This document shows positions 2,528 to 60,378 of a DNA stretch of 64,000 nt, one piece after another (within the stretch, counting starts at the first letter, position 1; each line of letters begins with the position of its first letter). The DNA is from Desertibaculum subflavum. Lineage in GTDB: Bacteria > Pseudomonadota > Alphaproteobacteria > Ferrovibrionales > Ferrovibrionaceae. The stretch is taken from contig QOZS01000010.1 in the NCBI GenBank assembly GCA_003576705.1, forward strand, positions 59,280 to 123,279, written 5' to 3'. Below the pieces are notes generated by a model. The model worked only from the letters and a program-made list of their open reading frames with translations. It made no database searches and had not been told where the DNA came from. The translations under genes were made by a program, and so were the position numbers.

Positions 2528-3721
2528 CCGCCCCAGCAGCGCCGCGAGACGCGCGCCGGCGACGCGGCCCTCGCCCGGCTGCAGCGCCATCGGGTTGAAG
2601 CGGATGATGCCGGCGCGTAAAGCGGTCGGGTCGACATGCACCGACGGCATGCTGTTCTGCAGCGCGATCACCAGGTCGAGCACGTCATGGCCGGCGCCCG
2701 GATCGAGCCGGGCGTCGAGCACCGGCACGGTATCGCCGCCGGCATCGACCAGGGTCAGCTGGACCTGGTTGGCGCTGCGCAGCGCGTCCTGCACCTCGGC
2801 GAGGCGGGCGAGCCAGGCGGCATGGCGCGCCGCCGGATCCTCGGCGACGAAGCGGCGCAGCGCCACCAGCAGGCCGACGACCTGCTCCTTGCCCACCTTG
2901 CAGGGCCGGCCGATGCCGTGCTGCGGCAGGCCTTTCAGGCGGCGCTTGTCGAACAGCGCGGGCGGCGGGTTCCACTGCCGGAACAGGATGTCCTGGTCGA
3001 GCATCTGCAGCGCCGCCGACTGCACCAGATCACGCCGGCCGCAGAGAATGCCGCTCGCCTGCGGTCCCAGGATCGCCTTGCCGCCGGAGAAGGCGACCAG
3101 ATCGGCGCCCTCGGCGATGAAGCGGCGCAGGTTACCGGCCGGCGGCAGCTGCCCGGCGGCATCGACAATCACCGGCACGCCGCGCGCATGCGCCACCGCC
3201 ACCATCTCGGCGAGTGAGGGCTCGGATTGCGGGTTCGCCACATGGAGCACGCAGGCGGTGCGCTCGGTGATCGCATCGGCGACCTCCCAGGCCTCGGCAT
3301 CGCGCAGGCCGGCGCCGGCATAGCGGTCGGCCAGGCCGACCTCGACCAGGCGCGCGCCGGCCTGGCGCACCGCATGGTCGTAGAGATTGCGCTGGCTCCG
3401 CACCACGACGACCTCGTCCTTGAGGCCCGTCGTGTCGGGCAGGCGGTTCATCAGCGAGGGATCGAGGCCGGCGATGCAGGCGGCGGTGCCGAGCATCAGC
3501 CCGGCGGCCGCGCCGGCGGTGACGATGCCGGCCTCTGCCCCCGTCACCTCGGCGATGATCTCGCTGGCGCGGCCCTGCAGGGTCGGCATGTCGACGCAGG
3601 CCTGCGTCGCCTGGCGCATCGCCTCCGCCACTTCCGCCGGCAGGATGCCGCCGGAGACGCGGGTCGAGGTGCCCTTGGCGTTGATGATGGTGGGGATGCC
3701 GAGCTGTTCGAACACGTTCAC
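2519..3721 (-). CDS. SelA-like PLP-dependent lyase/aminotransferase-fold enzyme
   Basis: A 400-aa fold-type I PLP enzyme related to the SelA family but shorter than true selenocysteine synthase. Lys215 in the block FSGGKAILGPQASG is the expected Schiff-base lysine, and Asp187 (VIVDAAGQLPP) should contact the pyridine nitrogen. Short SelA-like proteins of this type include D-glucosaminate-6-phosphate ammonia-lyase and other ammonia-lyases of sugar or amino acids; the substrate here is unknown. It is the last gene of a minus-strand operon, and its GTG start overlaps the stop of the amidohydrolase by 4 bp (GTGA). Despite a selenoprotein elsewhere in this window, it should not be read as SelA: length and context argue for catabolism. 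Confidence 0.75.
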   Translation of the reverse strand: MNVFEQLGIPTIINAKGTSTRVSGGILPAEVAEAMRQATQACVDMPTLQGRASEIIAEVTGAEAGIVTAGAAAGLMLGTAACIAGLDPSLMNRLPDTTGLKDEVVVVRSQRNLYDHAVRQAGARLVEVGLADRYAGAGLRDAEAWEVADAITERTACVLHVANPQSEPSLAEMVAVAHARGVPVIVDAAGQLPPAGNLRRFIAEGADLVAFSGGKAILGPQASGILCGRRDLVQSAALQMLDQDILFRQWNPPPALFDKRRLKGLPQHGIGRPCKVGKEQVVGLLVALRRFVAEDPAARHAAWLARLAEVQDALRSANQVQLTLVDAGGDTVPVLDARLDPGAGHDVLDLVIALQNSMPSVHVDPTALRAGIIRFNPMALQPGEGRVAGARLAALLGRSG

Positions 3722-43870: not shown

Positions 43871-44767
43871 TCAGAACCCGTAGAGCACGGCCGGGTTGTC
43901 GACCAGGACGCGCTTGCGCGCGGCCGGATCGGGCAACCAGCGGCCGAGCAACTCGAGCGTCTCCACCGTCGGCATCATCGGCTTCGAGAAGCGCACATGC
44001 GGCCAGTCGCTGCCCCAGACCATCCGGTTGGGCGCGGCGGCGATCAGTGCCTGCGCCATCGGATCGACATCCTCGAAGTCGTGGTTCTTCTGGCTGGCGC
44101 GGTAGGCGCCGGAGATCTTCACCCAGGTGCGGCCGGTCTTCAGCAGATCCAGCATGGTGCGGAAGGCGGGATGGCCGGTGCCCTCCGGCAGGTGCACGCC
44201 GGCCATATGATCGATCACCACCGGCACGGATAGCTTGGGCAGGCGCGGCGCGACATCGACCAGGCGCTGCGGCGTGGTGAGCAGCTGCACATGCCAGCCG
44301 AGCGGCGCGATCCGCTGAGCCAAGGTCTCCAGCGCGTCGAAGCCGATGCCGCCGCCGATCGAGACATTGAGCCTGACGCCGCGCACGCCGATCTCGTGCA
44401 TCGAGCGGAGATCCGCTTCCGGCACGTCCGGCGGCACCACCACGACACCGCGCAGCCGCTTGGGATGGCGGCGCATCACTTCCAGCATCAGGCGGTTGTC
44501 GGTGCCGTGCACGCTGACCTGCACCAGCACGCCGCGATCGATGCCGAGCCCGTCGAGCATGCGGAAATATTCCGCCTCGCTCGCCGCCGGCGGCGTGTAG
44601 CTGCGGTCGGCGACGAAGGGATAGGCGACGCCGTCGCCGATCACATGCGCATGCGTGTCGCAGGCGCCGGGCGGCACCGGCCAGGAGGGCCGCTGCATCT
44701 GCGGCAACGGGCCCGTGCAAGCCGGTGCCGAAGCAGTGGCGAGCGGATGGTGCGGCGCTTGCGTCAT
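43871..44767 (-). CDS. Amidohydrolase family protein, 2-pyrone-4,6-dicarboxylate lactonase (LigI)-like
   Basis: A 298-aa TIM-barrel amidohydrolase resembling LigI-type lactonases. DTHAHV (37-42, His39/His41) is the metal motif of the first strand, followed by GVLVQVSVHGTDN, a VVIDHMAG strand and the C-terminal WGSDWPHVRFSKP with the catalytic Asp. Such enzymes hydrolyse lactone rings in aromatic acid degradation. Start ATG 44767 with GGGAGGAAAGA; it overlaps the preceding paralogue gene by 4 bp, which places it at the end of the selenoprotein operon. It differs clearly from the ACMSD-like protein encoded next door. Confidence 0.85.
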   Translation of the reverse strand: MTQAPHHPLATASAPACTGPLPQMQRPSWPVPPGACDTHAHVIGDGVAYPFVADRSYTPPAASEAEYFRMLDGLGIDRGVLVQVSVHGTDNRLMLEVMRRHPKRLRGVVVVPPDVPEADLRSMHEIGVRGVRLNVSIGGGIGFDALETLAQRIAPLGWHVQLLTTPQRLVDVAPRLPKLSVPVVIDHMAGVHLPEGTGHPAFRTMLDLLKTGRTWVKISGAYRASQKNHDFEDVDPMAQALIAAAPNRMVWGSDWPHVRFSKPMMPTVETLELLGRWLPDPAARKRVLVDNPAVLYGF

Positions 44768-45765
44768 TCTTTCCTCCCGAGAGATTCGATCGCACGGGTA
44801 ACCGATCGCGTGCCGCCCATCCAGAGCGGCGGATAGGTCATCTTCAGGCCGGCCCCGCCGGTGACGATCGGATGGATGTCCCGCGGCGATGCGGCGATAC
44901 GCGCGGCAGATTCGCTTTGGTTGAACAGGTAATCCTGCGCGGCGGCGAGATCCCACCCGCCGCGCTCGATCATGCGCGCCATCTCGGGCGGCAACAGGAA
45001 GAACTGCTCGCCGCCGGGGCGCTCCCGTCCCGCCGAGGCCGCCAGCCGCGCCCCGCGCATGGCGTCAAGCATGGGGCGCAGCACCGCCTGCGGGCTGCTG
45101 CCGCCATCGACCGGCAGCACTTCCATGGTGCCCGAGACGCCGAGCACGGTCACAGCGTCGGCCTCGCGCGTGAAGCCGCGGCGAACATGCAGTGGCGGCG
45201 CCCAGGGATCGTCGACTTCCGCGAAGGCAAAGGTGTACTTGCCGGGCTGGCCCATGGTCGCCATGTCGCCGACGCCCGGATGCGCGCCGCCGATATTGGT
45301 GAGCGCCAGTCGGATGGCACGGCCGATGCAGGCATTGGCGCGGTTGCCGGGTCCGAGACAATTGGCGCTGGCGTTCATGCCGAGGCGCGCGGCGATCGGT
45401 CCATGCACGATTGCGGCGACAGTCGGCGTTCCTGTCGTCGTCTGGATGCCGAGCAGGTTGAAATCTGGCTCCAGGCAGGCGGTCACCGCGGCCAGCACCA
45501 CCGGCAGCTCGGCCGGAACGCAGCCAGCCAGCACGCATTGATAGGCGACGGCCGATACCGTCAGCTCGCCGAACAGCGGCGGCACCTGGCCGAAGGACCG
45601 GCTCGGTTCGGCGACGCCCTGCAGCATGCGAGCGAGGCGCGACCGCGTCGGCGGCACCAGCGGCAGGCCGTCGCCGAGCTGCAGCGCATCGAGCGCGGCC
45701 TGCGCTTCCTCGAAGCTGACATTGTCGCCGAAAAGGGGAAGCTCTTCGCTGCCGATGCCGGACAT
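44764..45765 (-). CDS. Conserved protein of unknown function, paralogue B (UGSC-operon partner)
   Basis: A 333-aa protein clearly homologous to its upstream neighbour at 45767-46810. Shared blocks: DGLPLVPPT near 32-40; AGC (Cys82) before PAELPVVLAA; ASANC (Cys136) followed by GPGNRANACIGRA; TNIGGAHPGVGD; and DPWAPPLHVRRGF. Cys82 and Cys136 align with Cys81 and Cys135 of the neighbour, so two cysteines are conserved after duplication. No signal or membrane segments. The gene starts one base after the paralogue stops and overlaps the LigI-like gene. No characterised family is recognised. Tight linkage to the probable selenoprotein two genes upstream suggests a joint complex or pathway. Confidence 0.8.
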   Translation of the reverse strand: MSGIGSEELPLFGDNVSFEEAQAALDALQLGDGLPLVPPTRSRLARMLQGVAEPSRSFGQVPPLFGELTVSAVAYQCVLAGCVPAELPVVLAAVTACLEPDFNLLGIQTTTGTPTVAAIVHGPIAARLGMNASANCLGPGNRANACIGRAIRLALTNIGGAHPGVGDMATMGQPGKYTFAFAEVDDPWAPPLHVRRGFTREADAVTVLGVSGTMEVLPVDGGSSPQAVLRPMLDAMRGARLAASAGRERPGGEQFFLLPPEMARMIERGGWDLAAAQDYLFNQSESAARIAASPRDIHPIVTGGAGLKMTYPPLWMGGTRSVTRAIESLGRKE

Positions 45766-45766
45766 A

Positions 45767-46810
45767 TCAGGCCGGCAGCGCCACCCGCACCGAGCAGACG
45801 GCGGTGCCGCCGAAGGACGGGATATAGGCCGAATGCTTGCCCGGACCGCCGGCGACGACGATGTGAATGTCCTCGACCGTCGGCGACATCGGATACCAAT
45901 CGCCATCCGGATGGCGGCCGGTCGAAGCATAGCTCTCGCGGTTCTCCTTGGAGACGCGGGAGATGTGCACGCGGGCGCGGCGGAAGACCTCCTCGCGCAG
46001 GGCCTCGATGGTCCAGCCGTCGCGGTGCAGCGTCTCGGCATGCTCGGGCCCCAGCACCAGCACGTAAGGCCCCTTGCCGTAGATGAGATTGGAGCCCGGC
46101 TGAGCGATCGATTCGCAGATCGTGGTCAGCACGCCTTCGGCCGTGGTGCTGCCATGGTCGTTGATGTTGTGCGGCGCCTCGCCGGACATCACCGTGACCA
46201 CGCTGTCGGTGGCGGCGAAGCCGCGGCGGACGTGATAGGGCGCCCAGGGACTCACCTCCTCGTTCTCGCCGAAGCAGAACGAGAACTTGGCCGGCGAGCC
46301 CTGCGTCGAGCGGTCCATCACGCCGGGCCTGGCGCCGCCGACATTCAGCAGGATGAGTTCCAATGCCCGGCCGATCGTCGCATTGGCGCGCCAGCCCTGG
46401 CCGAAGCAGTTGCTGCCGCAATTGATGTCCAGCGCCTGGCGCAGCGGCCCGCTCACCATGATCATCGGCGCGCAGGGATGCGTCGTGGCCAGCGTGCCGT
46501 GCAGGTTGTATTCCGGCGACAGCACGCCGCGCAGCGCCGCCAGCACGACCGGGAAATATTCCGGCTTGCAGCCCGCCATCACCGCGTTGGCGGCGAGGCT
46601 CGCCAAGGTCGGCACCACCTGGCGCGGCGAGATCGGCGCGAAGGTCTGGTTGTCGCCGCGGGCGGCGGCGGTGAAGCGCGCCACCGCCGCCTCGGTCGGC
46701 ATGACCAGCGGCATGCCGTCGCTCCAGCCTTGCGCCAGGGCGAAGTCGTTCCAGGCCTCGCTGTCCGGGATGTCGAGGTCGATGACCTCGCTCGAGCTGA
46801 AGTCGTTCAT
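45767..46810 (-). CDS. Conserved protein of unknown function, paralogue A (UGSC-operon partner)
   Basis: A 347-aa protein paired with the homologue encoded just downstream. Order of conserved blocks: DGMPLVMPT (31-39), MAGCKPEYFPVVLAA (Cys81), the NCGSNC motif (Cys131, Cys135) followed by FGQGWRANATIGRA, NVGGARPGVMD, and SPWAPYHVRRGF. Cys131 is not shared with the paralogue; Cys81 and Cys135 are. The C-terminal half differs more between the two. GGGAAGAGGGG precedes the ATG at 46810, 16 bp after the selenoprotein stop. Two similar chains from adjacent genes suggest a heterodimer, which is inference. Function unknown. Confidence 0.8.
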   Translation of the reverse strand: MNDFSSSEVIDLDIPDSEAWNDFALAQGWSDGMPLVMPTEAAVARFTAAARGDNQTFAPISPRQVVPTLASLAANAVMAGCKPEYFPVVLAALRGVLSPEYNLHGTLATTHPCAPMIMVSGPLRQALDINCGSNCFGQGWRANATIGRALELILLNVGGARPGVMDRSTQGSPAKFSFCFGENEEVSPWAPYHVRRGFAATDSVVTVMSGEAPHNINDHGSTTAEGVLTTICESIAQPGSNLIYGKGPYVLVLGPEHAETLHRDGWTIEALREEVFRRARVHISRVSKENRESYASTGRHPDGDWYPMSPTVEDIHIVVAGGPGKHSAYIPSFGGTAVCSVRVALPA

Positions 46811-46826: not shown

Positions 46827-47345
46827 CTATTTCGCGATCAGCTCGCGGATGCCCTCGAAGGCGCGGTCGATGCGCTCCGCCAGCTCCGTCGCGTTGAGGC
46901 CGCCCACCGGGTGCTTGACCACGACCAGCTTGGGCTCGATCTTCCGCGCCTTGGCCTGGGCGAGCACCAGCGGTCGGAACGTCTCGGTCGCGATCACCAC
47001 GCCGGCCACGCCCCGCTTCTCCAGCTCTACCGAGTCGTGGAAACTCCACGACGAACAGGAGCCTCAATCGGCGAGCGCAAGCAGCGCGATGCGATAGCTC
47101 TGCGCGACCTCGGCCAAGGTCTCGGCCGGGGCCGCCTGGCTCGCGCTGTTCTTCTGCGCATAGCCGATATTGTCGATCCCGCGGATGGTCGCGAGCTTGG
47201 CCTTGAGCCCGTCCAGCAGCTCGCGCGCATTCGGCTTGGAATTCGAGAACAGGACGATCGGGTCCTTCAGCCAGTCGACGGCGCCGCTGGCCAGCACTTC
47301 GGAACCGGCCGGCATGACACCGAAGGACGGATTGATGATCCGCAT
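46827..47345 (-). CDS. UGSC-family selenoprotein (in-frame TGA read as selenocysteine)
   Basis: A 172-aa protein if TGA at 47064-47066 is read as selenocysteine (Sec94). Without recoding it stops after 93 aa. Past the TGA the same frame runs 78 more codons to a TAG at 46827-46829, giving Gly95-Ser96-Cys97, then SSWSFHDSVELEKRG, VVIATETF and VVKHPVGGLN, recognisable as the UGSC domain, named for the motif U-G-S-C. The TGA falls exactly on the U, with Cys97 as the likely selenenylsulfide partner. The start ATG 47345 has GGGAGGAAAG. Position: 36 bp after a CxxC flavoprotein and before two paralogues. The enzymatic activity of the family is unknown; a thiol-disulfide-like role is inferred. A Cys-codon sequencing error is the main alternative. 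Confidence 0.85.
47024..47066 (-). promoter_or_regulatory. Candidate bacterial SECIS element
   Basis: On the minus strand, the TGA at 47066-47064 is followed by 11 nt and then the perfect stem GTCGTGG/CCACGAC (47052-47046 with 47040-47034), apical loop AGTTT. An added A-T pair gives an 8-bp stem with loop GTT. The loop starts 18 nt after the TGA and has a G among its first two bases, as bacterial SECIS rules require. GCTC (47062-47059) can pair with GAGC (47027-47024) as a lower stem. All of it lies in coding sequence, as usual in bacteria. Confidence 0.75.
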
Positions 47346-47381: not shown

Positions 47382-48287
47382 TCAACCTGCCAGCGCGCCC
47401 AATACGGCCTGACCGGCTCGACGCCCGTCCGCCGCCGCTTCGGCTACGGACTGGACGGCACCGGCACGCACGTCGCCAGCAGCATAGAGCAATGATGCGC
47501 CGGCCCGCTGGTTCTCGTCCACCCGAATTCGCAGGCCTTCGTCGCGCGTGACCAGATCGCCGGCGAAATCGGTTGCGGGCCGACGGTCCGTGTAGACGAA
47601 CAGGCCGCGCACCGGCACGGCCGCTTGGCGGCCGCCCTGGTCCAGCACGACCGATTGCAGTCCGTCCTCTCCCTGCAAGCCAAGAATGCGGCCCGGCAGG
47701 ACCGCGACATTTGGCAAAGACGTAAGGTGCCGGATGCGCGGGTCGGCAGTGTCCAAGGTGGCCGTGCCGGTGACAACAGTGGTTCGGCCCGCCGTTTCCG
47801 CCAGTTCGATCGCTTCCTGAAGGGCCCAGCGATCGGCGCCGGCCACCATGACATCGGCGCCGGCATAGAGCGGCCCGTCGCAGGCGGCACAATGCGACAG
47901 GCCCTGACCTTCGAAGCGGGCTTCGTCGTCGATGCCGAGCCGGCCGTTGCCAAGCCCCGTCGCGACGATGACGGCGCGGGCGGTGAAGCTTTCCGACTCC
48001 GTCTGTACCGTCCAGACATCGCCCGGCCGCAGTGACTGAACTTCGCCGATGGCGAGTTCGGCACCGGCACCCATCGCGTCATCGGTCAGGCTGGCCACAT
48101 GGTCCGGGCCGCTGGTGCCCGCGGGCAAGTCCGGGCAATCGACCAAAGCCCCCAGATTGATCAGGAGGCCGCCGGGGCCCATCCGGTCGATGCAGAGGCA
48201 GCGCAGGCCGCCGCGTGCCACGATTGCTGCGGCGGTCAGGCCGGCGACACCGGCGCCGATCACGATCGCGTCGAAGGACGTCGTCAC
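47382..48287 (-). CDS. Thioredoxin-reductase-like FAD-dependent oxidoreductase
   Basis: A 301-aa flavoprotein of the low-molecular-weight thioredoxin-reductase type. The FAD-binding GAGVAGLTAA follows the first strand (11-20), the active-site pair is Cys133/Cys136 (HCAACDG), and the C-terminal FAD motif is AAGDVRAGAVQSVAEAAADG (269-288). In the middle domain the usual NADPH motif (GGGxSA and the HRR that reads the 2'-phosphate) is replaced by AGADRWALQEA with no HRR, so it may use another electron donor. Start GTG 48287 with GAGG upstream. It stands 36 bp before the UGSC selenoprotein gene, whose selenenylsulfide it might reduce (inference). Confidence 0.85.
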   Translation of the reverse strand: MTTSFDAIVIGAGVAGLTAAAIVARGGLRCLCIDRMGPGGLLINLGALVDCPDLPAGTSGPDHVASLTDDAMGAGAELAIGEVQSLRPGDVWTVQTESESFTARAVIVATGLGNGRLGIDDEARFEGQGLSHCAACDGPLYAGADVMVAGADRWALQEAIELAETAGRTTVVTGTATLDTADPRIRHLTSLPNVAVLPGRILGLQGEDGLQSVVLDQGGRQAAVPVRGLFVYTDRRPATDFAGDLVTRDEGLRIRVDENQRAGASLLYAAGDVRAGAVQSVAEAAADGRRAGQAVLGALAG

Positions 48288-48315: not shown

Positions 48316-48765
48316 TCAGGGTGCCCGGCGATAGAACGGGGCGCGCCCGCGCACCGGGTCGAGCAGCGACCAGTCACCCTGCTCGACCTCGTGCCCGCGG
48401 GGGAAAGGCGGGCGCGGCTCCTGCCCGAGCGAGCGCATCACCCGATCGTCGCGATAGTAGCAGAGCAGCACCACGCGATTTAGCGCGAAGAGCGGCGCAC
48501 CGCCTTCCCGCTTGAAGGCCGCGGCGATTTCGGCACGGCGTCCCGCCGGAAGATCGGCGAAGCTGCCGCCGGCCATGCGTGCCAGCAATGCCAGCGCGGC
48601 CCGCGCATCTGCCGTGTCTCGCTCCAGACTGCGCAGGATGTCGGCGAAGATCAGGTCGTCGTCAGCACCGGGCACACCGTAGACGTCGCTCGCCGGAATC
48701 ATCAGCGCCGCCAGCGCGCGCAAGTCGCGCGTCTCGGCTTCGGTCAGGGGATTGTCGCGGTCCAT
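48316..48765 (-). CDS. Gluconate 2-dehydrogenase subunit 3-like protein
   Basis: A 149-aa alpha-helical protein of the gluconate 2-dehydrogenase subunit 3 family, which accompanies GMC-type dehydrogenases. The family opening LRALAALMIPASDVYGVPGADD lies at 14-36. Members usually have a Tat signal for export; this one begins MDRDNPLTEAETRD and has none, and no cytochrome c subunit gene is nearby. So the pair with the following-strand GMC gene is probably a soluble cytosolic enzyme. It starts 9 bp after the GMC stop. Confidence 0.85.
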   Translation of the reverse strand: MDRDNPLTEAETRDLRALAALMIPASDVYGVPGADDDLIFADILRSLERDTADARAALALLARMAGGSFADLPAGRRAEIAAAFKREGGAPLFALNRVVLLCYYRDDRVMRSLGQEPRPPFPRGHEVEQGDWSLLDPVRGRAPFYRRAP

Positions 48766-48774
48766 TGCATGGCC

Positions 48775-50382
48775 TCAATCGAACAGCGTGGCGTCGGCGA
48801 GGCGCCGCTTGATGCTGTCGGCGATATAGAGCGCCAGCGCCTGGATGGTCGAGGTCGGGTTCACGCCGCCGGCCGTGACCCAGATGCTGCCGTCGACGAT
48901 GAACATGTTCTTCACGTCGTGGCAGCGGCCCCATTCGTTGACCACCGAGCGCGCCGGATCGGTGCCCATCCGCGCCGTGCCGAGCAGGTGCCAGCCGCCG
49001 TTCAGGATCGGCCGCTCCACCGCGATGTTGCGGGCGCCGGCGGCCTCCAGGATTTCCGTCGCCCGCGCGATGCCGTGATCCATCATGCGGTGACTGTTCT
49101 CGCTGATCGTGTAGTCGATGCGCGGCGCCGGGATGCCGTGCGAATCCTTGAGGACCGGATCCAGCGTGACGCGGTTGTGCTCCTCGGGCAGGTCCTCGCA
49201 GATCGCCGATAGCCCGATGCGGCGGTTGAGCAATTGCTCCCGATAGATGCGGTGATGCTCCTCGCCCCAGGGCAAACGACCCGCGGCCGTGCTGACGATT
49301 GCCTCGACGATCGAGCCGAAGCCGCGGCCGAACTGAAAGGCATAGCCGCGCACGAAATCGCGCCGGTGGTCGGTCTCATAGAACTCGTGGCTCCACAGGC
49401 AGAGCGGCGGGCCGTGATTACCGTCGAGCGGCTCGTCGACATAACCGTAGGTCAGCGCATAGGGGTGGAACATCAGGTTCTTACCCACCAGGCCGCTCGA
49501 ATTCGCGATGCCGTCGGGAAAGCGGCCGGAAACCGAATTCAGCATCAGCCGCGGGGTGCCGACGCCGTTGCAGGCGACGATCACCATCTCGGCCGGCTGG
49601 AACTGCTCGCGGCCCTCGGCATCGTAATAGACGACGCCGGAGGCCATGCCACGCTCGTCGAGCGCAATCTCGCGCACCCGGGCGCGGGTCCTCAGCTCCA
49701 CGCCGGCGCGGATCGCATGCGGCCAGTAGGTGATGTCGGTGCTCGCCTTGGCGCCCTGCGCACAGCCCGGCGTGCAATGGCCGAGGTTGAGACAGCGCCC
49801 GCGACCGTCGTAATCGACCGTCGCGATGGTGGTGTCGGAAGGCCACCAGTGCCAGCCGAGCTTGTTCATCGCACGGCCGAAGCGCTGGCCCGATTTGCCG
49901 AGCGGCAGCGGCGGCATCGGCGGCTGCTTCGGCGGATAGGCGGGATCGCCGGCCAGGCCGGAGACGCCCATCATGCGATCGTTCTCGGCAAAGAACGGCT
50001 CCAAGGTCGCGTAGTCGACCGGCCAGTCATCGGCGACGCCGTCGAGAGTCCGGACCTTGAAATCGGAGGGATGCAGGCGCGGATAATGCGCCGTGTACAT
50101 GATGGTGCTGCCGCCGACGCCGTTGAAATTCACCACCTTGATCGGCGAGTTCGCGTCGTTGATCGGATAGTCGGTCGGCCGCGCCCGCCGGTTCGGGTTG
50201 ACGGCGAAATCGGAGAAGAGGCGCGCCTCCCAGTCGCGGCCATTGCTCGGGTAATCGGTCGGCTTCACCCAATCGCCCTGCTCCAGGCAGAGGATGCGCA
50301 TTTTGGTTTCGGCCAGGCTCCACGCCACGGCGGCGCCGGAGGCGCCCGAACCGATGATCAGCACGTCAACCTTCTCGTTCAC
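48775..50382 (-). CDS. GMC-family FAD-dependent oxidoreductase
   Basis: A 535-aa GMC oxidoreductase that oxidises an alcohol group, probably of a sugar, sugar acid or polyol. The ADP-binding motif GSGASGAAVAW is at about 12-22; the GMC block around TMYTAHYPR and a C-terminal WHLLGTARMGTDP with active-site His follow, ending in the FAD-binding AGGVNPTSTIQALAL. The start is GTG 50382 with the strong site GGAGGGGAGG. A subunit-3-like protein is encoded next. Without signal peptide or cytochrome partner it would be cytosolic and pass electrons to an unknown carrier, perhaps the flavoprotein/selenoprotein pair downstream (inference). Confidence 0.9.
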   Translation of the reverse strand: MNEKVDVLIIGSGASGAAVAWSLAETKMRILCLEQGDWVKPTDYPSNGRDWEARLFSDFAVNPNRRARPTDYPINDANSPIKVVNFNGVGGSTIMYTAHYPRLHPSDFKVRTLDGVADDWPVDYATLEPFFAENDRMMGVSGLAGDPAYPPKQPPMPPLPLGKSGQRFGRAMNKLGWHWWPSDTTIATVDYDGRGRCLNLGHCTPGCAQGAKASTDITYWPHAIRAGVELRTRARVREIALDERGMASGVVYYDAEGREQFQPAEMVIVACNGVGTPRLMLNSVSGRFPDGIANSSGLVGKNLMFHPYALTYGYVDEPLDGNHGPPLCLWSHEFYETDHRRDFVRGYAFQFGRGFGSIVEAIVSTAAGRLPWGEEHHRIYREQLLNRRIGLSAICEDLPEEHNRVTLDPVLKDSHGIPAPRIDYTISENSHRMMDHGIARATEILEAAGARNIAVERPILNGGWHLLGTARMGTDPARSVVNEWGRCHDVKNMFIVDGSIWVTAGGVNPTSTIQALALYIADSIKRRLADATLFD

Positions 50383-51718: not shown

Positions 51719-51825
51719 GCGCCCCCCTTGGTGCTGCGACCGGGGTCTATCGCCATCCATCCCCGGTCCTGTGCCGCTTTGCGCGTATACTAGATTTGAA
51801 TTGATCGGCGGTCATCGGGCGAGAC

Positions 51826-52587
51826 ATGAAGCAGGTTCTGATCATCGGCATCGGTGCGGGCGATCCCGAGCAGATCACCGTCCAGGCAGTGAATGCGCTG
51901 AACCGCGCCGATGTGTTGTTCGTGATGGACAAGGGTCCTGCCAAGGCGAAGCTCGCCGCCTACCGGAAGGAAATCTGCCGGCGCTATATCCGGCACGACC
52001 GCTTTCGTGTCGTCGAGGCGGAGAGCCCGGAGCGCGACGTTGCCGCGACGGATTACGATGCCGCGGTCGGTGATCTGAACCGGCGCAAGCAGGACGTGTT
52101 CGAACGGCTGATCGTCGAGGAGATCCCCGAGGGCGGCTGCGGCGCCTTCCTGACCTGGGGCGATCCGTCGCTCTACGACAGCACGATCCGCAATGTCGAA
52201 GCGGTGGCGCGGAAGGGTCACCGATTCGAATACGAAGTGATTCCCGGCATCAGCAGCATCCAGATGCTGGCGGCCCGGCACCGGACGACGCTCAACCGCA
52301 TCGGCCAATCGGTCGCGGTGACGACCGGCCGCCGACTTGCCGAGGGCTGGCCGGCCGATTCCGACAGCGTCGTGGTGATGCTGGATGCCGGCGACAGCTA
52401 CAAGCGCTTCGCGGAGCAGGATGTCGACATCGTGTGGGGCGCCTATCTCGGCACGCCGGACGAGATTCTGGTCGCCGGGAAGATCCGCGATGTGGCGCCC
52501 GAAATCGAACGGAAGCGAGCGGCGGCACGCCGTGCGAACGGCTGGATCATGGATTGCTATCTGATGCGGCGACGCAAAACCGACTAA
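51826..52587 (+). CDS. cobF: CobF: precorrin-6A synthase (deacetylating)
   Basis: A 253-aa SAM-dependent tetrapyrrole methylase. CobF methylates C1 of precorrin-5 and releases acetic acid, a step specific to the aerobic cobalamin route. The methylase signature IGIGAGDPEQITVQA is at 6-20, and GDPSLYDS near 116-123 forms the SAM pocket. The end RRANGWIMDCYLM is typical of CobF. Start ATG 51826 is close after an AT-rich stretch (51785-51800). It is convergent to cobS, with a 4-bp overlap of the ends. Confidence 0.93.
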   Translation: MKQVLIIGIGAGDPEQITVQAVNALNRADVLFVMDKGPAKAKLAAYRKEICRRYIRHDRFRVVEAESPERDVAATDYDAAVGDLNRRKQDVFERLIVEEIPEGGCGAFLTWGDPSLYDSTIRNVEAVARKGHRFEYEVIPGISSIQMLAARHRTTLNRIGQSVAVTTGRRLAEGWPADSDSVVVMLDAGDSYKRFAEQDVDIVWGAYLGTPDEILVAGKIRDVAPEIERKRAAARRANGWIMDCYLMRRRKTD

Positions 52588-53357
52588 CCCGCCAGAGCAA
52601 GCGCCGTGATTGCCCCAGCCTCGGCGACGGCAACGATGGCGCCGAGCACGTCGCCCGTATAGCCATCCAGCCGCCGATTGGCCTTGGCGGCAATCGGAAT
52701 CGCGAGGGCCAGGGCCACGAGTACCGCCAAGAAGGGCCCGGACCAATCTCCAAGCAGGATCGAGCCGACAAGCCATACGAGCGCGAGCGCGAGCGCTGCC
52801 GCGATCACTTGCACTGCCTGCGGCCGGTCGGCGGCGACCGCGGCGCCATCCGTGCGTGCCAAAGGCAACAGGAGCATCACCGGCGCGATCGCAAACCGGC
52901 CGGCGGCATGCGACAGCGCCAGCGACACGGCCGCCGCCGAGGCAGACGCGAAGCTCGCCAGCGCCGCCACCCGCACCAGCAGCAGCAGCGCAAGGCCCGC
53001 CGCGCCGAATACGCCGAGACGGCTGTCGCGCATGGCGGCCAGACGGTCGGCGGCGGTGCCCCGGCAACCCATGCCGTCGCAGAAATCGGCGAAGCCGTCC
53101 TCGTGCAGCAGGCCGGTCAGCAGGACAGGGACGATCACGGCGGCCACGGCGGCGAGAAGCGGCGTCGCGCCCAGCGCCTGCAGCAGCGCCCAGGCAAGCC
53201 CACCGGCAGTGCCGACCAGCGCGCCGACCAGCGGGAAGGCCCACAAGGTCTCGGCCAGCTTCGGCGCCGGCTGCTGCGCGGTATAGGGCCAAGGGATGCG
53301 GGTCAGCCAATGGATCGCCACGATCCATTCGTCGTAGGCACGCCGCAGCCGGTCCAT
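52584..53357 (-). CDS. cobS: CobS/CobV: adenosylcobinamide-GDP ribazoletransferase
   Basis: A 257-aa membrane enzyme joining adenosylcobinamide-GDP to alpha-ribazole to give cobalamin. HEDGFADFCDGMG (about 84-96) is the metal-binding signature; several hydrophobic helices follow. It starts just after the cobU gene (3 bp gap). Although called CobS in enterics and CobV in the Pseudomonas scheme, it should not be confused with the cobaltochelatase CobS. It receives products of CobU and CobT encoded directly upstream. Confidence 0.93.
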   Translation of the reverse strand: MDRLRRAYDEWIVAIHWLTRIPWPYTAQQPAPKLAETLWAFPLVGALVGTAGGLAWALLQALGATPLLAAVAAVIVPVLLTGLLHEDGFADFCDGMGCRGTAADRLAAMRDSRLGVFGAAGLALLLLVRVAALASFASASAAAVSLALSHAAGRFAIAPVMLLLPLARTDGAAVAADRPQAVQVIAAALALALVWLVGSILLGDWSGPFLAVLVALALAIPIAAKANRRLDGYTGDVLGAIVAVAEAGAITALALAG

Positions 53358-53360
53358 GCT

Positions 53361-53918
53361 TCAGCCTTGCGGCTTCAGGCGCAGCGGCAGCCCGGCGACC
53401 ATCAAAACGACGCAATCCGCCGCCGCGGCGATGCGCTGATTGAGGCGGCCCTGTTCGTCACGAAAGCGTCGGCCGAGGGTGGTTTCCGGCACGATGCCGG
53501 CGCCGACCTCGTTGCTGACCAGGACGGTCGGCGCGGCGCGCGCCTGCAGCACCGCGAGAAGCGCCGCGATGCTGCCGTCGATGTCCTGATCCGCGAGCAT
53601 CAGGTTGCTGAGCCAGAGCGTCAGGCAATCGACCAGGACCGGCTGTCCGCCGCAGGCGCTCAGAATGCTCGCCAGCTCGCGCGGCGCCTCGATGGTGCGC
53701 CAGGCACTGCCACGCCGCGCCGCGTGCATCGCGATGCGTAGGCGCATCTCTTCGTCCAGCGCTTCCGCCGTCGCAAGGTAGGTGGCGCCGGAGCCTCGCG
53801 CGGCCTCGAGGACCAGCTCCTCGCCGAAGCGGCTCTTGCCGGAACGGGCGCCGCCGAGCAGGAGGGTAAGGCGCGGCGGTATGGCACCGTGGCCGAGCAG
53901 TTGAGCCCAGGCCGTCAC
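53361..53918 (-). CDS. cobU: CobU/CobP: bifunctional adenosylcobinamide kinase / guanylyltransferase
   Basis: A 185-aa enzyme that phosphorylates adenosylcobinamide and then attaches GMP. The P-loop GGARSGKS is at 22-29; the VDCLTLWLSNLM block and VLVSNEVGAGIVPET segment are CobU-specific. The start is GTG 53918, overlapping the cobT stop by 4 bp; no ATG is possible near it. Neighbours cobT and cobS act on either side of it in the nucleotide-loop assembly. Confidence 0.95.
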   Translation of the reverse strand: MTAWAQLLGHGAIPPRLTLLLGGARSGKSRFGEELVLEAARGSGATYLATAEALDEEMRLRIAMHAARRGSAWRTIEAPRELASILSACGGQPVLVDCLTLWLSNLMLADQDIDGSIAALLAVLQARAAPTVLVSNEVGAGIVPETTLGRRFRDEQGRLNQRIAAAADCVVLMVAGLPLRLKPQG

Positions 53919-54934
53919 GCCGAAGGCCCTGAAACCTGCGCCTCTTCGAAGGTGGCCATGCCGTTGTGACAGGCGACCGCGGCGCGCACGAGGCCGATCG
54001 CCGCCGCCGCGCCGCTCGCCTCGCCAAGCCGCATGCCGAGCGAGAGCAGCGGGACGAGGCCCATCGCGTGCAGGCAGCGGCGATGCGCGGGCTCGCCCGA
54101 TTCATGCGCGGCGATGGCATGGTCCAGCGCGCCGGGGGCAAGACGCAGCAGCGGCGCCACCGCCGATGTCACGATGAAGCCGTCGAGCAGCAGCGGCACC
54201 CGGTGCAGCCTCGCCGCCAGCGCGGCGCCCATGATCGCCGCCAGTTCGCGCCCGCCGACGCGGCGCGCGGCCTCGATCGGGTCCTTCAGCGCCGCGCCGT
54301 GGTGCCGGAGCGCGCGGTCGACGATCGCCGCCTTGTTGCGCACCCCCTGTGAGTCAAGCCCGGCCCCCGGCCCGGCCCAGTCGACGCCGCCGCCCCCGAA
54401 CAGGGCGGCGGCCAGCGCCGCTGCCGCCGTGGTGTTGCCGATCCCCATATCGCCCAGGATCAGCAGCTCTTCCGCGCCGCTGACGGCGCCTAGCCCGGTA
54501 TTGACGGCCGCGACGAATTCTTCCTCGTCGAGCGCCGCCGTCGCCGTCATGTCGCCGGTCGGGCGATCGACGCCGCAGTCGATCGCCGTGAGGCTGGCGT
54601 CGAAGGCGCGCGCAAGCTGATTGATCGCCGCGATGCCGGCGCGAAAGCCTGCCAGCATCTGCGCGTTGACCGCATCGGGATAGGGCGAGACGCCGTACCG
54701 GGTCACGCCGTGGCTGCCGGCGAACACGATGATGCGCACCGCGTCGGCGCGCGGGGTGACATTGCCCTGCCATGCCGCCAGATGGACGGCGATGTCTTCC
54801 AGCCGCCCGAGCGAGCCCGGCGGCTTGACCAGCCTGCCCTGGCGCTGCCGCGCCGCCGCCTCGATCGCCGCGTGCTTCGCCGGCAGATCCGCGAGCAGGT
54901 CGCGCAGCTCCGCCGCCTTGGTGATCTTCATCAT
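53915..54934 (-). CDS. cobT: CobT: nicotinate-nucleotide-dimethylbenzimidazole phosphoribosyltransferase
   Basis: A 339-aa enzyme making alpha-ribazole phosphate from dimethylbenzimidazole and nicotinate mononucleotide. Recognisable blocks: PPGSLGRLEDIA, FAGSHGVTRYGVSPYP, LLILGDMGIGNTTAAAAL and a C-terminal catalytic Glu region LSLGMRLGEASGAAAA. Start ATG 54934, whose A is the last base of the cobA stop (TGATG), or the adjacent ATG. It provides the lower ligand that CobS attaches. Confidence 0.95.
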   Translation of the reverse strand: MMKITKAAELRDLLADLPAKHAAIEAAARQRQGRLVKPPGSLGRLEDIAVHLAAWQGNVTPRADAVRIIVFAGSHGVTRYGVSPYPDAVNAQMLAGFRAGIAAINQLARAFDASLTAIDCGVDRPTGDMTATAALDEEEFVAAVNTGLGAVSGAEELLILGDMGIGNTTAAAALAAALFGGGGVDWAGPGAGLDSQGVRNKAAIVDRALRHHGAALKDPIEAARRVGGRELAAIMGAALAARLHRVPLLLDGFIVTSAVAPLLRLAPGALDHAIAAHESGEPAHRRCLHAMGLVPLLSLGMRLGEASGAAAAIGLVRAAVACHNGMATFEEAQVSGPSA

Positions 54935-57905: not shown

Positions 57906-59355
57906 GGATGCGATCGATATCGAGATGCGCTTCCAGATGCGCGGCAAGGCGATCCAGCGTGGCCTCGACCGAGGCCGCGTGATTGCGTGTCGAAGGCGCC
58001 GCACCGAGGCGCCCGAGCCAGGCCGAGCGCTGGCCGTCATCGGCGAAGAAGCCGTGCATGTACGTGCCCGATACCAGCCCGTCCGCCGATACCGCCCCAT
58101 CGAGGCGCCCTTGCGTCAGCCGGACCAGCGGCCGCTCCGCGTCCGGCCCCTGCGTGCGGCCGAGATGCATTTCGTAGCCGCGGAAGGGGACGCCGTCGGC
58201 AACGGTTTCGCCTGAGACCTCGACCAGCTTCTTGTCGGCCGTCAGCACGGTCTCGACATTGAGCATGCCGAGCCCGTCCACTGTACAAGCGGGTCCTTCG
58301 ACACCGTCCGGATCGGCGATGCGCCGGCCCAGCATCTGAAAGCCGCCGCACAGCCCAAGCACGCGGCCGCCACGGCGGCGATGCGCGGCGAGATCGACGT
58401 CCCAGCCGGCGGCGCGGAACGCCGCCAGATCGGCGATGGTCGCCTTCGAGCCCGGCAGGATGACGAGATCGGCCCGGCCCGGCAGCGCCTCGCCCGGCCG
58501 GACCAGAACCAGCTCCACCTCCGGCTCCGCGGCCAGCGGGTCGAGATCGTCGAAATTGGCGATCCGCGGCAGCACCGGCACCGCCACCACGATGCGCCCG
58601 CCGCCCTGTGGCCGCCGCGCATGCTCCACCAGGTCGAGCGAATCCTCCGCCGGCAGCAGCCGGGCATCGTCAAACCAGGGCACCAGGCCGAGCGCCGGCC
58701 AGCCGGTGCGTTCGGCGATCAGTTCCATGCCGGCGCTGAACAGCGAGGTATCGCCGCGCATGCGGTTGACCACGAAGCCGACCACCGTCGCCGCATCCTC
58801 GGGCGACAGGACGGCATGGGTGCCGACCAGGCTGGCGATGACGCCGCCCCGGTCGATATCGCCGACCACCACCACCGGAACGTCAACAGCACGGGCGAAA
58901 CCCATATTGGCGATGTCGCCGCCGCGCAGATTGATCTCGCTGGCGCTGCCCGCGCCTTCCACCAGGACGAAATCGGCCGCGGCGCGCAGCCGGCCAAAGC
59001 TCTCCAGCACGAATGGCATAAGGTCCGGCTTCATCTTCTGATATTCCCGCGCGCCGGCGCGGGCATGCACGCGGCCCTGCACGACGACCTGCGAGCCGCC
59101 TTCGGTTTCCGGCTTCAGCAGCACCGGGTTCATGTGCACCGACGGCGGGACGCCCGCCGCCAGCGCCTGCAGCGCCTGGGCGCGGCCGATCTCGCCGCCA
59201 TCGGCGGTGACGGCCGCATTGTTCGACATGTTCTGCGGCTTGAACGGCCGCACCGACAGGCCGCGCCGCACCAGCGCACGCGCAAGACCCGCCACCAGCA
59301 TCGACTTGCCGACGCTGGAACCGGTGCCCTGCAGCATGATGGCGCGCGCCGGCAT
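57889..59355 (-). CDS. cobQ: CobQ: cobyric acid synthase (glutamine-hydrolysing)
   Basis: A 488-aa amidotransferase that amidates positions b, d, e and g of adenosylcobyrinic acid a,c-diamide. The ATP-binding GTGSSVGKS lies at 10-18; the class I glutaminase domain has the nucleophile Cys336 ([11 protein letters not shown]) and His434 (YMHGFF). The start ATG at 59355 overlaps the cobO stop by 1 bp (TGATG). The open frame extends far upstream only as a shadow of cobO. Confidence 0.95.
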
Positions 59356-59975: not shown

Positions 59976-60378
59976 GTCGAGATCGTCCGGAAGCCCGGCG
60001 CAGTCATGCATACCGCGCCCGGGTGCATCAAGCGGCGCCAGCATCCTTGTTGACTCGGGTTGAACCCGCGGGGTACTCACGGCCAGACGGTCCTTCCGCC
60101 TGGAAGGCGAAAAGGGAATGCGGTGCGGGCTCGCCCAATGCCGCAGCTGCCCCCGCAACTGTAAGCGGAAAGCCGTTCGTCGCTATGCCACTGGGCCTTG
60201 CTCGGGAAGGCTGACGGAAGGCGATCGTATCCGCGAGCCAGGAGACCTGCCGTCGCCGTGCTTGTCTGTTGCCGGGGCGGGGTGCACCGGTAACGGCGGT
60301 TCCGCCTCGCGGCGGGCCGGCCCCCGGTTGTGGGCGAGACCGTACCCCCGGACCGCCGCCGACCGGCGCGGACATGCC
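59976..60378. other. Divergent intergenic region holding the cobalamin riboswitch
   Basis: This 403-bp gap separates cobO from the DUF1636-cobW-cobN genes. It is mostly the cobalamin riboswitch (about 60087-60253). The 125 bases after it contain GC-rich inverted repeats such as GGCGG-TT-CCGCC (about 60294-60305), likely part of the switching hairpin that hides or frees the DUF1636 ribosome site. No small gene seen. Confidence 0.7.
60087..60253 (+). promoter_or_regulatory. Cobalamin (B12) riboswitch
   Basis: The conserved boxes occur in the right order and spacing: AAAAGGGAAT with GGTGCGG (60110-60127), GCCGCAGCTGCCCCCGCAAC followed by TGT (60140-60162), CCACTGG (60188-60194), GGGAAGGC (60204-60211) and GCGAGCCAGGAGACCTGCC (about 60233-60251). 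It is on the plus strand and precedes DUF1636, cobW and cobN, so high B12 should shut these three genes down. Confidence 0.95.

Follow-up and report, generated by a model that had tools for sequence, protein, structure and literature searches.

A UGSC-family gene of Desertibaculum subflavum with a predicted selenocysteine codon, and its constant partner family as parts of a candidate reductive enzyme

Is the TGA that interrupts a UGSC-family reading frame of Desertibaculum subflavum a stop codon or a codon for selenocysteine (Sec), and what would the full-length protein do? The frame lies in the window analysed here, the whole stretch of 64,000 nucleotides at positions 59,280 to 123,279 of contig QOZS01000010.1 (assembly GCA_003576705.1). 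On the minus strand it begins with ATG at 47345, runs for 93 codons to TGA at 47066-47064 and continues for 78 codons to TAG at 46829-46827; with TGA read as Sec, the product has 172 residues and Sec is residue 94. The codons at the site are TGA-Gly-Ser-Cys, and the TGA is the sole break in the 172-residue frame. Judging from the comparisons set out below, this TGA is almost certainly decoded as Sec, and we consider it probable that UGSC is the Sec-containing catalytic subunit of a thioredoxin-fed reductive enzyme that also comprises proteins of a family labelled LRG here.

UGSC is known as a selenoprotein family. Within the accessible text of the papers that form our literature basis (PMC2398784, PMC13188914, PMC9312934, PMC3091704), it ranks with the more abundant families of selenoproteins in aquatic microbes, with 255 sequences in the Global Ocean Sampling survey (PMC2398784). 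The accessible parts of reviews describe its function as still open, and no paper assigning one appeared in our literature searches.

For scoring, the read-through product was written with Cys in place of Sec. It matched the Pfam family UGSC (PF24696) over residues 26-169 with 116.1 bits (cut-off 25), which places it in the family, and the NCBIfam equivalog NF041046 with 117.4 bits, slightly below the cut-off of 125; the window protein therefore represents an outlying subfamily that is not filed under NF041046. It shares with the UGSC-containing selenoproteins already described (PF24696, NF041046 and the accessible text of PMC2398784) the Pfam family, Sec at the UGSC site and the occurrence of Sec and Cys forms. 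Besides the score below the NF041046 cut-off, it differs from them in that Trp replaces the third Cys, a change that matches a difference in the hairpin stem described below, and in that its gene adjoins two LRG paralogues.

The upstream gene and the next three genes downstream in this run all end in TGA, and because TGA is the ordinary stop for these four genes it has not been reassigned. Conservation of the codon was followed in 289 genomes of the class, with up to 11 UGSC candidates scored per genome. UGSC was present in 27 of them (E up to 0.001), and 69 of the 70 matches listed contain exactly one stop, a TGA, while the remaining match (G246) contains none; the two further UGSC genes of the source genome (G000) hold one TGA each. 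The window protein was compared with 31 database relatives: 26 break off directly before the TGA, two cross it and the other three are truncated or shifted in another way. Where Sec is expected, the two that cross it (P0122 and P0123) have Gly and Trp, probably from a TGA translated under another code. Named loci, found with a search pattern that demanded Cys or Gly at the site, carried Cys wherever the residue was read out, in genomes that include Methanobacteriaceae, haloarchaea, actinobacteria and sphingomonads. The in-frame TGA thus aligns with Cys of the non-Sec relatives, the pattern by which a selenoprotein is recognized.

These comparisons bear directly on two simpler explanations of the TGA. 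A sequencing error or disabling mutation in a Cys-form gene would require a single base change, from TGC or TGT; it is scarcely credible when the same TGA recurs in all but one of the listed matches from 27 genomes, most database relatives stop there, and the downstream hairpin occurs mainly in Sec forms. Ordinary annotation would instead give a true stop, leaving a functional 93-residue product and a relic frame behind it. Here, however, the frame stays open and conserved for the 78 codons that follow and includes an HP motif invariant in the eight sequences compared, the Cys-form relatives are full length and the full Sec machinery is present, so that we give this possibility equally little weight.

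The machinery was found in the source genome (5.67 Mb, completeness 100), where a tRNA-Sec with anticodon TCA accompanies profile matches to SelB (478 bits), SelA (579 bits) and SelD (283 bits). The combination that marks a genome as selenoprotein-encoding (SelA, SelB, SelD and tRNA-Sec) is complete. The SelD match (G000:C53:24982-25896, locus L014) lies in a 959-codon frame, and fusions of SelD with NADH dehydrogenase are described in the accessible text of PMC2398784. Across the class, SelA occurs in 40 of the 289 genomes but in 26 of the 27 UGSC holders; the only UGSC genome in which it was not found (G011) is 77% complete. The distance between SelA and UGSC is about 5 to 6.4 kb in G057, G091 and G123, and the stretches of these three genomes share one cluster with locus L052, of which the member in G057 (L142) is SelB. 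Within the window, a weak SelA-like match of 45 bits, below the family cut-off, lies at 3014-3370 (minus strand) in a 417-codon frame; we take it to be perhaps a related pyridoxal phosphate enzyme.

A preliminary description, made from the letters alone, had called the gene a probable selenoprotein on account of the same 93 codons, TGA and 78 open codons, with TGA-Gly-Ser-Cys falling on the family motif. Our own frame reading agrees with it throughout. Its judgement that a random stop is unlikely is strengthened by the recurrence of the TGA in the class and among the relatives, and the Sec and Cys forms that it took as established are confirmed by the accessible text of PMC2398784. Alignment of the read-through to UGSC relatives favours a Sec position, and selA, selB, selC and selD, for which the description had proposed a search, are all in the genome and over their cut-offs. 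The partner genes, the reductase and the likeness to GrdB, all treated below, lie outside that description. The selenoprotein call is sound and, as in that description, we infer the insertion of Sec.

A candidate bacterial selenocysteine insertion sequence (SECIS) begins at the 12th nucleotide past the TGA, with a TGA-to-loop spacing of 19 nt and a folding energy of -12.5 kcal/mol (z -3.7). The accessible text of PMC13188914 gives the rules for bacterial SECIS elements as a loop of 3-9 nt, a stem of 4-16 bp, G in the first two loop positions, a spacing of 16-37 nt and a minimum free energy of at most -7.5 kcal/mol. The window hairpin, with its loop of 3 nt, 8 bp, G first and the spacing and energy just stated, conforms to all of them. 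The comparison with relatives was restricted to stretches with the pattern GAY-TGA/TGY-GG..., and loci without the exact pattern (e.g. L038 and L046) were dropped. Mean folding z was -1.35 for 35 distinct Sec-form stretches versus +0.11 for 51 Cys-form stretches (Mann-Whitney p 8.9e-8); seven or eight of the eight stem pairs form in 29/35 versus 11/51; and the loop starts with GU in every Sec form versus none of the Cys forms. The hairpin appears from these sequences to be mainly a feature of Sec forms, with Cys-form relatives mostly lacking it.

One stem pair, 21-27, is C-G in 30 Sec forms and G-C in the five that make up the window's subfamily, so that it forms in all 35, compared with 30 of the 51 Cys forms. 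On the protein side the swap is mostly accompanied by Trp-Ser-Phe in place of Cys-Ser-Leu, and base pair and residues therefore differ together; Trp at that site is also found in many Cys forms, where the pair is kept less often. Covariation was counted on 34 of the Sec stretches, one being identical over 45 nt, with pair 21-27 present as C-G in 29 and as G-C in five. Outer stem pairs were weaker, two of them failing in nine and seven of the 34 sequences; a third pair (22-26) fails in five. The percentage paired and the covariation score were reached by none of 500 shuffles and one further measure was reached once, while pairs changed on both sides and further pair types did not rise above the shuffles (reached by 169 and 165 of 500). 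An Rfam search of the UGSC region returned a chance match only.

Immediately downstream of UGSC lie LRG1 and its paralogue LRG2. LRG1 has at least 7,972 relatives among 7,998 candidates scored, the closest named ones mostly from Alphaproteobacteria, and a scan of 28 LRG members against Pfam and NCBIfam with E up to 10 gave only single chance matches. The association with UGSC is constant. With up to six LRG candidates scored per genome, LRG (E up to 1e-20) was found in exactly the same 27 of the 289 genomes as UGSC; among the matches listed, the partner lies within 3.5 kb for 63 of 70 UGSC rows and 74 of 79 LRG rows; and in the source genome all four LRG matches are located at its three UGSC genes. 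LRG was likewise in the fetched stretch of 53/54 named loci and 31/32 class loci (own genome included), and 23 natural UGSC-LRG fusions, each one open frame, occur among the named loci. Phytohabitans suffuscus has a natural fusion of the Cys form. It is very probable that the two proteins form a complex. A nearly invariant Cys was present in 83 of 88 LRG rows. A UGSC protein fused to a domain called 'Unknown_1' (Figure S1A), which may be LRG, is mentioned in the accessible text of PMC2398784. A sequence search of LRG against solved structures gave no convincing relative (best E 0.39), and fold searches with the fusion model, being dominated by the UGSC half, yielded no LRG fold. In a locus from Myxococcales (L052:8396-10108, plus strand), a TGA at the Sec site interrupts a second UGSC copy, which stands beside a Cys-form copy and continues into LRG in one frame.

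A thioredoxin fold follows the order beta-alpha-beta-alpha-beta-beta-alpha. Structure models of the window UGSC protein (predicted local distance difference test score, pLDDT, 93.5; predicted template modelling score, pTM, 0.87) and of a UGSC-LRG fusion (pLDDT 88.6, pTM 0.89) instead have UGSC as beta-alpha five times, a predicted Rossmann/flavodoxin-like fold of alternating beta and alpha elements. The models do not show the thioredoxin-like fold thought likely for UGSC in 2008 (PMC2398784, accessible text). The fold search gave no thioredoxin among the 50 matches listed, which by itself excludes nothing, and a search by sequence gave no convincing relative of solved structure (best E 0.07, an isochorismatase). 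UGSC resembles the thioredoxin-like selenoproteins (UxxC) in having Sec and Cys two residues apart and in its predicted redox role, but differs from them in this modelled fold.

A likeness was also found to GrdB and PrdB (PF07355), the Sec subunits of glycine and D-proline reductase. Comparison of the UGSC profile with a GRDB profile by hhalign gave a probability of 82% and a score of 45.8 (alignment A4) over 68 columns, with Sec column on Sec column; the first UGSC alignment gave 72% and 42.0, again Sec on Sec. Controls stayed below 26: the maximum was 24.2 in 200 column shuffles, with the reversed profile also below, and 25.6 against 66 clusters of neighbouring frames without UGSC, and the four remaining clusters of the 70, which contained UGSC, gave scores of 82 to 214. 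The GRDB profile was built from the same class only, using 16 of 20 loci (L106, L111, L114 and L123 were omitted, their frame being not located or looking different); in ten clostridial genomes weak GRDB matches were seen in two, and none was used. The aligned place holds a TGA in 14 of the 16 GRDB-type genes, the exceptions, L119 and L120, having no Pfam match at 1e-6 and L120 no solved relative by sequence. The likeness was visible only in profile comparison: plain HMMER gave no match between GRDB and UGSC, and a Pfam scan of eight UGSC members with E up to 10 matched UGSC alone, for which reason the window protein is not filed as GrdB. In both groups a resolving Cys stands three residues after Sec, the flanks have a similar pattern as far as the HPVG/PLG motif, and there is a thioredoxin reductase-like gene in the vicinity. 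The accessible text of PMC13188914 gives a UxxCxxC motif for GrdB, and this spacing occurs in 29 of 31 Sec-form UGSC proteins, the window protein being one of the two exceptions. Unlike GrdB and PrdB, UGSC has LRG as constant partner, and LRG gave no match to the family of pyruvoyl proproteins; no LRG was found beside GRDB genes in 20 loci of about 3 kb. The pyruvoyl partner family itself (Gly_reductase, PF09338) gave matches in none of the 289 genomes, yet control genomes also gave none. A GRDB-type gene of the source genome (G000:C112:2418-2624, locus L116) has an in-frame TGA at the Sec position and is, by this alignment, likely another of its selenoproteins.

The arrangement UGSC-LRG1-LRG2 is kept in all four related loci compared (L138, L139, L140 and L144). 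The thioredoxin reductase-like gene is kept in three of them, the contig of the fourth starting about 1 kb before UGSC; among 77 stretches, the window's included, it occurs in 13, and in one (L075) it is fused to thioredoxin. Other frequent neighbour clusters in these stretches were CoA transferase III (20), enoyl-CoA hydratase (15), AMP ligase (15), acyl-CoA dehydrogenase (13), ABC transporter ATPase (12), luciferase-like monooxygenase (10) and Amidohydro_2 (6). Clusters were made from stop-to-stop frames, antisense included, with one member of each named by Pfam, and the stretches of up to 22 kb bring in many chance neighbours. Their identities suggest a place for UGSC-LRG in catabolism, and the several UGSC-LRG pairs per genome among differing catabolic genes suggest an enzyme set for different substrates.

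Several features seen in the sequence underlie the proposed reductive enzyme: a single TGA at the UGSC position, a hairpin-forming stretch behind it, a full set of Sec machinery, LRG as constant partner, fused to UGSC in other organisms, and a thioredoxin reductase-like gene directly upstream. According to the model, SelB and tRNA-Sec would read the TGA with the aid of the hairpin, and UGSC, LRG1 and LRG2 would assemble into a single complex, with an organic substrate bound by LRG. The UGSC selenol, at a helix start, would then attack a substrate carbon, much as the accessible text of PMC3091704 proposes for PrdB, whose Sec attacks a substrate held by PrdA before a Cys resolves the adduct. One bond of the UGSC-LRG substrate would be cleaved. 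Cys97 would resolve the selenium adduct to a Se-S bond, which the thioredoxin reductase-like protein, alone or together with thioredoxin, would reduce with NADPH; the same text has glycine reductase drawing on NADPH through thioredoxin reductase and thioredoxin. A reductant of thioredoxin type is a good expectation, and the thioredoxin reductase-like protein is the likely electron donor. GrdB-like cleavage of a carbon bond is possible but short of probable.

Two other functions compete with this model. UGSC could be a selenoprotein that acts as a plain selenol-thiol oxidoreductase, keeping LRG, the real enzyme, reduced without touching the substrate. Sec with a resolving Cys is indeed a typical redox motif, LRG has its nearly invariant Cys, a thioredoxin reductase-like gene lies nearby and the accessible literature groups UGSC with redox proteins; however, the predicted UGSC fold lacks the thioredoxin element order, the Sec region resembles GrdB/PrdB, and fusion to LRG, though compatible with either role, speaks more for a catalytic than for a recycled subunit. 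On balance we regard this role as unlikely. Somewhat less likely again is a hydrolase, lyase or transferase in which Sec serves as nucleophile with no net reduction, as the frequent catabolic, CoA-related neighbours (CoA transferase III, enoyl-CoA hydratase, AMP ligase, amidohydrolase) might suggest, since the thioredoxin reductase-like neighbours, the one thioredoxin fusion and the resolving Cys indicate a redox cycle.

A broader proposal may be advanced, about as tentatively as carbon-bond cleavage: UGSC and LRG could be a third class of GrdB-type selenocysteine reductases, extending from proteobacteria and actinobacteria to archaea, two-part, with LRG replacing the pyruvoyl subunit and many substrate-specific copies per genome. 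Such a class would have escaped notice, since UGSC is annotated as a fragment of 94 aa and no family model covers LRG. Annotation loses both halves, the selenoprotein as a truncated fragment in those 26 of 31 relatives and the partner for lack of a model. Judged by our literature searches, several things are new: the constant partner together with the fusions, the fold predicted for UGSC, an active site like that of GrdB, and the difference that SECIS and protein show jointly in the window's subfamily. With LRG, the fusions found in nature and the gene for the reductase, there is a concrete protein set by which the function of UGSC becomes testable.

Table 1. Positions of the UGSC gene, its predicted Sec elements and the genes around it in the window
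Feature	Positions	Strand	Basis or remark
UGSC-family selenoprotein gene	46827..47345	-	Frame reading; Pfam and NCBIfam match
TGA in frame, predicted codon for Sec at residue 94; Cys97 would be the resolving Cys	47064..47066	-	Alignment
Predicted bacterial SECIS hairpin	47034..47052	-	8-bp stem 47052-47045 / 47041-47034, loop GUU 47044-47042
LRG1 (our label), 347 aa, constant UGSC partner	45767..46810	-	Without Pfam or NCBIfam model
LRG2, 333 aa, LRG1 paralogue, 34% identical	44764..45765	-	Sequence comparison
Thioredoxin reductase-like flavoprotein, CAAC motif	47382..48287	-	TIGR01292, 179.5 bits, below cut-off 343
Amidohydro_2 hydrolase, same run, overlaps LRG2 stop by 4 nt	43871..44767	-	Pfam/NCBIfam
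Small 149-aa protein, same run	48316..48765	-	Scan; without Pfam or NCBIfam match
GMC oxidoreductase, same run	48775..50382	-	Pfam

Relatives of the Amidohydro_2 hydrolase and the GMC oxidoreductase were not found in the four related loci. Elsewhere in the window, a Cobalamin riboswitch was detected at 60071-60268 on the plus strand (121.6 bits), and the genes at about 51800-54900 are presumably for B12 biosynthesis.
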